Positions 28,254 through 29,573 of a stretch of DNA of 64,000 bases are shown in pieces; positions within the stretch are counted from its first letter, which is position 1; every line of letters begins with the position of its first letter. Made by a program: the position numbers and the translations under genes. Origin of the DNA: Gemmatimonadetes bacterium 2013_60CM_65_52. Lineage in GTDB: Bacteria; Gemmatimonadota; Gemmatimonadetes; Gemmatimonadales; Gemmatimonadaceae. The stretch is from positions 62,001 through 126,000 of the forward strand of contig NGFI01000014.1 in the NCBI GenBank assembly GCA_002215645.1, in the 5' to 3' direction. The notes beneath the pieces were generated by a model, which made no database searches, was not told where the DNA came from, and saw only the letters and a list, made by a program, of their open reading frames with translations.

Positions 28254-29333
28254 CTAATCGCCGAAGGAGATCCCGATTTCTCGTGCCGTCTGCACGAGAT
28301 CGTGGGCGACGTCCACGCGCTTCTTCTCTTTCAGCACGTCATCGATGGGAACCGTGACGATGTGCGGCGTCTGGAGGGCAACCATATGGCCCCACTTCTC
28401 ATCCGCCACCGCGCGAACCGCGGCGCCGCCGAAGCGCGTGGCCAGCAACCGGTCGTAGCCGGTTGGCATTCCACCGCGCTGAAGATGCCCGAGCACGAGT
28501 GAGCGCGTCTCTTTGCCGGTGACTGCCTGGATCTCCCGCGCAATCAGTTCGGCTACGCCGCCGACCCGCTTCGCCTGCCCGGGAAGCGATTCGCCAATGA
28601 GGTGTACTTCCCCGCCCTTGGGATATGCCCCCTCCGCGACGACGACGATGGAGAAATGCCGCCCCGCCGCGTCGCGAGCCAGGATCTTCTCGCACACTTT
28701 CCCGATGTCATAGGGAATCTCGGGAAGGAGAATCACGTCCGCGGTACCCGCGACACCCGAGTGCAGCGCGATGAATCCCGCATCGCGCCCCATCACCTCC
28801 ATCACGATCACGCGATCGTGACTCTCGGCGGTGGTGTGCAGCTTGTCGATTGCCTCGATGGCGGTGTTCACCGCCGTGTCGAAGCCGAACGTGGTCACCG
28901 TGCCGCTCACGTCGTTGTCGATCGTCTTGGGAACGCCGATGACGCGCATGCCTTTGTGGCAGAGCTGGCGGGCGATCTCCAGCGAGCCGTCGCCGCCGAT
29001 GGTGATGACCGCCTCGATGCCGAGCCGCTGGGCGTTCTCCATCAGCTCGTCCGACCGGTCCACCGCCACGTACGAGCCGTCGGGCTGCTTGCGCGGATAG
29101 CAGAACGGATTCCCACGATTGGACGCCCGGAGGATGGTTCCGCCAAGGTGTCCGATGCCGCGCACCGATTCTCTCGTGAGCGGAATGACTTCGTCTTCTC
29201 CGAGCAGTCCGGCGAAGCCGCGCTTGACGCCGATGACTTCCCATCCGCGATTGACAGCGGTGAGCACGGCCGCGCGGATGACGGCGTTGAGGCCGGGGGC
29301 GTCTCCGCCGCCCGTCGAGATGGCGATACGCAT
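28254..29333 (-). CDS. pfkA: 6-phosphofructokinase
   Basis: A 359-residue PFK: STGGGDAPGLNAVIR at the start, IGGDGS (~residue 104) and VPKTIDND (~137), plus the substrate-binding MGRDAGFIA. It phosphorylates fructose-6-phosphate in glycolysis. The two positions used to predict the phosphate donor disagree: GGDG is the ATP-type Gly, while PKTIDND has the Lys found in pyrophosphate-dependent enzymes. The donor is therefore uncertain. ATG 29333 is used; TTG 29336 is unlikely. The SelW-like gene ends 17 nt upstream on the same strand. Confidence 0.93.
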   Translation of the reverse strand: MRIAISTGGGDAPGLNAVIRAAVLTAVNRGWEVIGVKRGFAGLLGEDEVIPLTRESVRGIGHLGGTILRASNRGNPFCYPRKQPDGSYVAVDRSDELMENAQRLGIEAVITIGGDGSLEIARQLCHKGMRVIGVPKTIDNDVSGTVTTFGFDTAVNTAIEAIDKLHTTAESHDRVIVMEVMGRDAGFIALHSGVAGTADVILLPEIPYDIGKVCEKILARDAAGRHFSIVVVAEGAYPKGGEVHLIGESLPGQAKRVGGVAELIAREIQAVTGKETRSLVLGHLQRGGMPTGYDRLLATRFGGAAVRAVADEKWGHMVALQTPHIVTVPIDDVLKEKKRVDVAHDLVQTAREIGISFGD

Positions 29334-29349: not shown

Positions 29350-29573
29350 TCAGGATGCCTTCAGGTGCGAAACGATCTCTCCCGGCGCCGCGTGCCGTCC
29401 CGTCTTGGACTTCTCGTACACGGCACACCGTCTTTGAGAACCTCGAAACGCCCCCCCGAGCTCGGAACCAGCGTCACCTCGGCTCCGGGGAAATGTTCGT
29501 TGAGCTCGGCCACCAGCCTGGCGGCCCTCGGTTCGTAGTTTCAAAGCGTGCAATACTCGATCGAGATCTTCAT
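29350..29573 (-). CDS. SelW/Rdx-family selenoprotein gene, in-frame TGA, one frameshift
   Basis: Read from ATG 29573, the frame gives MKISIEYCTL, then TGA at 29543-29541, then NYEPRAARLVAELNEHF and PGAEVTLVPSSGGRFEVLK. This is the thioredoxin-like Rdx fold of SelW/SelT/SelH with the redox motif as C-x-x-U. A hairpin 22 nt after the TGA fits a bacterial SECIS. The family ending VYEKSKTGRHAAPGEIV lies in the next frame, joined at CCG/GTG around 29421 where one base is missing. So the gene needs both UGA recoding and either a corrected base or a frameshift. Its role would be thiol redox. No selA, selB, selC or selD lies in the window. It sits between pfkA and a small lipoprotein gene. Confidence 0.8.
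29508..29526 (-). promoter_or_regulatory. Candidate bacterial SECIS hairpin
   Basis: On the minus strand the 8-bp stem GGCCGCCA / TGGTGGCC (one G-U pair) closes a GGC tri-loop. The loop starts 22 nt after the UGA, within the 16-37 nt window known for bacterial SECIS elements, and has G in its first two positions, which SelB recognises. The hairpin lies within the coding frame, as is normal in bacteria. Confidence 0.7.

Follow-up and report, generated by a model that had tools for sequence, protein, structure and literature searches.

The minus strand of the 64-kb window (the whole stretch of DNA that was analysed), from a Gemmatimonadota bacterium, almost certainly holds a selenoprotein gene of the SelW-like (Rdx) family, starting at position 29573. 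Directly downstream lies its conserved neighbour, a gene at 28254-29333 (minus strand; MRIAISTGGGDAPGLNAVIRA...), presumably phosphofructokinase-like (pfk) judging from its sequence motifs. From the ATG at 29573 (minus strand) the frame reads MKISIEYCTL-TGA-NYEPRAARLVAELNEHFPGAEVTLVPSSGGRFEVLK, letter for letter as an earlier sequence-only reading of this DNA had given it, and the in-frame TGA at 29543-29541 (minus strand; motif CTL-TGA) does sit at the Sec position of a C-x-x-U motif. This predicted selenocysteine codon 11 is TGA in relatives as well, and the Cys of the motif, Cys8 (TGC, 29550-29552, minus strand), is invariant in the alignment of relatives. The window's own genome (4.2 Mb in 14 contigs, 97% complete) gave a single match in a Pfam Rdx profile search, namely the SelW-like locus with one TGA inside; no second Rdx gene was found by this search.

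Everything outside the TGA had been claimed to match the Rdx family, which is true for codons 1-50 (29424-29573, minus strand; MKISIEYCTL-U-NYEPRAARLVAELNEHFPGAEVTLVPSSGGRFEVLKDGV), the part of the ATG frame matching the Rdx profile. After DGV(P), however, the ATG frame departs from the family, and it ends at an unrelated TGA at 29363-29361 (minus strand). Codons 1-50 reach 29424 and are followed by two bases (CC) and then by GTG TAC GAG AAG TCC... from 29421; since codon 51 has all its bases in the aligned relatives (e.g., CCC, CCA, CCG), one base is missing in the window copy (GTG-CC_-GTG-TAC, 29421-29424, minus strand). Because of this one-base loss, the true C-terminus VYEKSKTGRHAAPGEIVSHLKAS (29421-29353; with its stop 29350-29421, minus strand) lies in the frame that had been called a 'shadow', and this segment gave a second match in the own genome (E 4.6e-10) in the search across the nearest genomes. 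The annotatable ORF of 84 aa (29604-29350, minus strand) is off-frame in its 5' half, as had been proposed, but its 3' half is in the genuine frame. The span 29573-29350 is 224 nt, which is not a multiple of three, a point overlooked in the sequence-only reading. Conserved family sequence in the frames on both sides of the shift could suggest that a programmed ribosomal frameshift joins them in the window species, but all aligned relatives stay in one frame and there is no slippery heptamer at GGT GTG CCG TGT. With in-frame relatives and the lack of a slippery site, we rule out programmed frameshifting, whose probability is close to nil.

The shift also explains how the window copy scores against family models. 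Through the TGA, the copy matches PF10262 (Rdx) with 46.9 bits in the genome search and 54.5 bits, against a curated cut-off of 22.6 bits, and coverage stops after the first 50 of 74 positions due to the frameshift; an intact relative is matched over positions 1-73 of 74 with 71.2 bits. The relative's full protein also passes TIGR02174 ('CXXU_selWTH'; 56.1 vs a cut-off of 34.2). NF041051 (SelTWH_Campy, SelT/SelW/SelH family (seleno)protein) is the best NCBIfam match, which the intact relative passes with 93.3 (cut-off 88), whereas the window copy alone fails with 68.2, its reading frame holding only over the first part. Judged from its sequence, the window copy is a member of the Rdx family by descent and, as sequenced, a broken one.

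To place the TGA among relatives, we compared three sets of genomes. The TGA gene occurs in 28 of the 40 nearest genomes (own genome excluded), each with one TGA, at the identical codon in 28/28. A phylum-wide scan of 200 genomes gave 101 matches, nearly all with TGA. In the named genome collection, scanned with two search patterns of which one demanded a Cys codon at the Sec position, TGA stands at the Sec codon in 80/80 best loci, almost all of them titled Gemmatimonadota/Gemmatimonadetes MAGs. The frame downstream of the TGA is open and conserved in relatives, rather than relatives having Cys or a stop here with no conserved downstream frame, which had been named as a sign against a selenoprotein. 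A TGA and a frameshift in one short gene, seen alone, look like decay, as if the TGA had arisen by nonsense mutation in an Rdx gene of the Cys type or the frame were a chance one. This is extremely improbable, as roughly a hundred genomes or more have TGA at the identical codon and keep the frame open beyond it, the SECIS covaries and the Sec machinery is complete (see below); the conservation of the TGA across the phylum rules it out.

selA and the TGA gene tend to occur together. Within the first 41 genomes, 26 of the 29 carriers of the TGA gene but 5 of the 12 non-carriers had selA over the cut-off (Fisher p 0.003), and in a later set of 12 genomes selA was present in 6/6 TGA carriers and 0/2 of the Cys-form-only genomes. 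No selA over the cut-off was found in three TGA-gene genomes (G006, G011, and G026), two of which are 91-95% complete. The complete one-contig genome G150 has its orthologue beside the pfk gene (G150:C1:2897497-2897706) with Cys in place of Sec (CVGCNYQPRAA) and lacks selA, and is a natural Sec/Cys replacement; its SECIS hairpin is partly decayed. The genome G076 likewise has the Cys form without selA. Several variants of the family were also observed. In G164, a genome with selA, a second Rdx paralogue (G164:C55:638-862; MADKVRVLIEYUAEUEYQSHAARV...) has TGA in place of the Cys codon and again at the Sec position (U-x-x-U); its frame stays open up to a normal stop, and its contig is short (5.1 kb). 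The only other two-TGA match among the 200 genomes is in G130:C7. Distant Rdx paralogues with 30-37% identity and no in-frame TGA are present in G002:C342 and G004:C57.

A bacterial SECIS hairpin lies at 29508-29526 (minus strand), with the stem formed by 29526-29520 and 29514-29508 and the loop (AGGCU) at 29519-29515. The sequence-only reading had described an 8-bp hairpin with a G-first loop 22 nt downstream; this hairpin is present and can be drawn with 8 bp and the loop GGC, or else with 7 bp and the loop AGGCU, its stem beginning 14 nt and its loop 21-22 nt after the UGA. The bacterial SECIS model has an upper stem of 4-16 bp, a loop of 3-9 nt with a G at loop position 1 or 2, a distance of 16-37 nt from the UGA, and an MFE at or below -7.5 (PMC13188914). 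At 7 bp, a 5-nt loop, 21 nt, and -16.2 kcal/mol for a 54-nt stretch, the window hairpin is inside all these limits, including the G position, and nothing notable sets it apart from the model. The loop in the family is mostly GGUCU, AGUUU or AGUCU (80 best loci). The fold of the single window sequence is not significantly better than shuffles (z -1.22), and the hairpin is convincing because of the comparison across relatives. In an alignment of 29 sequences, gap-free after the TGA, stem columns 18-24 with 30-36 (29526-29520 with 29514-29508) form standard pairs in 96.1% of cells. The covariation score is 0.237 vs a shuffled mean of 0.099 (0/500 shuffles as high), and both-side changes occur in 12 stem cells, a number reached by 0/500 shuffles. 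In slid controls, where the stem partner was moved by 1-3 columns, such changes were at most 1 and the covariation signal collapsed. Both partners of the outermost pair are third codon positions, one in an Arg and the other in an Ala codon, and G-C, C-G, A-U and U-G are all seen there; these changes with pairing kept are not demanded by coding constraint. The possibility that the hairpin is a by-product of Ala-rich coding is ruled out by these compensatory third-position changes, and covariation together with the published constraints bears out its identification as a SECIS.

We then looked in the own genome for the Sec machinery, whose absence would have spoken against a selenoprotein, and found all of it: selA (C13:277482-278807, 542 bits), selB (C13:637884 onward, 617 aa, 324 bits), selD (C13:706819-707739, 367 bits), and tRNA-Sec (selC; anticodon tca (UCA), 69.6 bits). 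The tRNA-Sec gene is directly 3' of selD, in a block at G000:C13:706819-707924. There is an in-frame TGA within the RCAGUAAKLGPGDL stretch of selD, at the catalytic Cys/Sec position, and the selD product is itself a predicted selenoprotein. The machinery and the TGA-containing selD are indicative that this organism makes selenoproteins, as the sequence-only reading had anticipated, whatever the frameshift in the SelW-like gene means. A search for a formate dehydrogenase selenoprotein in the own genome gave nothing over the cut-off, the weaker matches being without TGA.

How the missing base arose bears on whether the window copy is functional. An uninterrupted downstream frame is absent in the window copy, whereas it is present in relatives. 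The 3' segment nevertheless keeps all invariant family residues (KSK..GRHA.PGE), and its dN is lower than dS, as it is by a wide margin on the upstream side of the shift; any loss of the gene is therefore recent. When the 64-kb window was scanned for coding frames, switches of frame turned up only near in-frame stops, with no other mid-gene switch lacking a nearby stop; the assembly is thus not obviously indel-rich, which weakens the case for an assembly error, but the scan has low sensitivity for short genes since it did not detect the SelW-like gene itself. We slightly favour an assembly error over a recent inactivating mutation. A substantial minority of the probability goes to a recent pseudogene, that is, a Sec gene real in relatives and lost in the window species by the one-base deletion at codon 51. 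The frameshift itself, the failure to find a second copy in the genome, and the result of the window scan are in its favour, and losses do occur in this gene, as in G031 (G031:C1:1104084-1104182), where an internal in-frame deletion has removed about one-third of the SelW-like protein while the TGA and SECIS are kept. However, the SECIS and TGA of the window copy are intact, the downstream invariant residues are all kept with dN < dS, and the loss of a single base is also what an assembly error typically looks like. As the copy is frameshifted and the Rdx search turned up no other such gene in the genome, it is uncertain whether the own organism makes a functional full-length SelW-like protein, and it may not.

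With the Sec codon, its SECIS, the machinery and their conservation established computationally, the incorporation of Sec and the redox reaction would be expected to proceed as in the family. During translation, the hairpin that closely follows the UGA would be bound by SelB with Sec-tRNA(UCA), and selenocysteine would be put in at position 11. The product would be an Rdx protein of the thioredoxin-like type whose C-T-L-U redox pair probably takes part in thiol redox chemistry by reversibly forming a selenenylsulfide; by the established chemistry of the family, the protein is expected to act as a CxxU thiol/selenol redox protein.

A pfk-like gene is within about 100 nt downstream of the SelW-like gene, or overlaps it, in 27/29 loci of the first set, and by a strict motif pfk is within 400 nt in 61 of the 80 best collection loci. 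The phosphofructokinase-like protein of the window (28254-29333, minus strand) has GGDGS together with PKTIDND, a mix which bears on ATP vs pyrophosphate use. The adjacency is observed directly, and the two genes may be coupled in an operon or through regulation. It is a speculative and rather improbable extension that Sec-SelW is coupled genetically, and perhaps translationally, to phosphofructokinase across Gemmatimonadota, linking selenium-dependent thiol redox to glycolytic flux. The conserved pfk neighbour is, all the same, a testable hint on the function of bacterial SelW-like proteins.

In essence, both Sec decoding and a Sec-SelW gene are widespread among Gemmatimonadota, the gene would be lost in ordinary annotation, and the phylum supplies a natural Sec/Cys replacement in a selA-less genome. 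A search of the open-access literature turned up no relevant paper, judged by title and abstract, on selenoproteins or selenocysteine in Gemmatimonadetes/Gemmatimonas. The phylum-wide spread, the pfk linkage and the Sec/Cys replacement are points of mild interest, and the gene described here is a further example of the long-described bacterial SelW-like selenoproteins. Geobacter sulfurreducens and Desulfotalea psychrophila are among the organisms listed with such proteins, which tend to keep Sec (PMC1794560). Solved Rdx structures (2fa8, 2obk, 2p0g, and 3dex) share the domain over nearly the full length (2fa8, E 2.6e-9 with the intact relative), but are more distant homologues. Like the known bacterial members (PF10262; TIGR02174), the gene has C-x-x-U in an Rdx domain, a small product of about 75 aa and a TGA with a downstream SECIS, and it shares with them that annotation sometimes misses the gene altogether, as happened to epsilonproteobacterial SelW (PMC4607533). 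It differs from them in its Gemmatimonadota lineage, its conserved place upstream of a phosphofructokinase gene, and the frameshift in the copy at hand.
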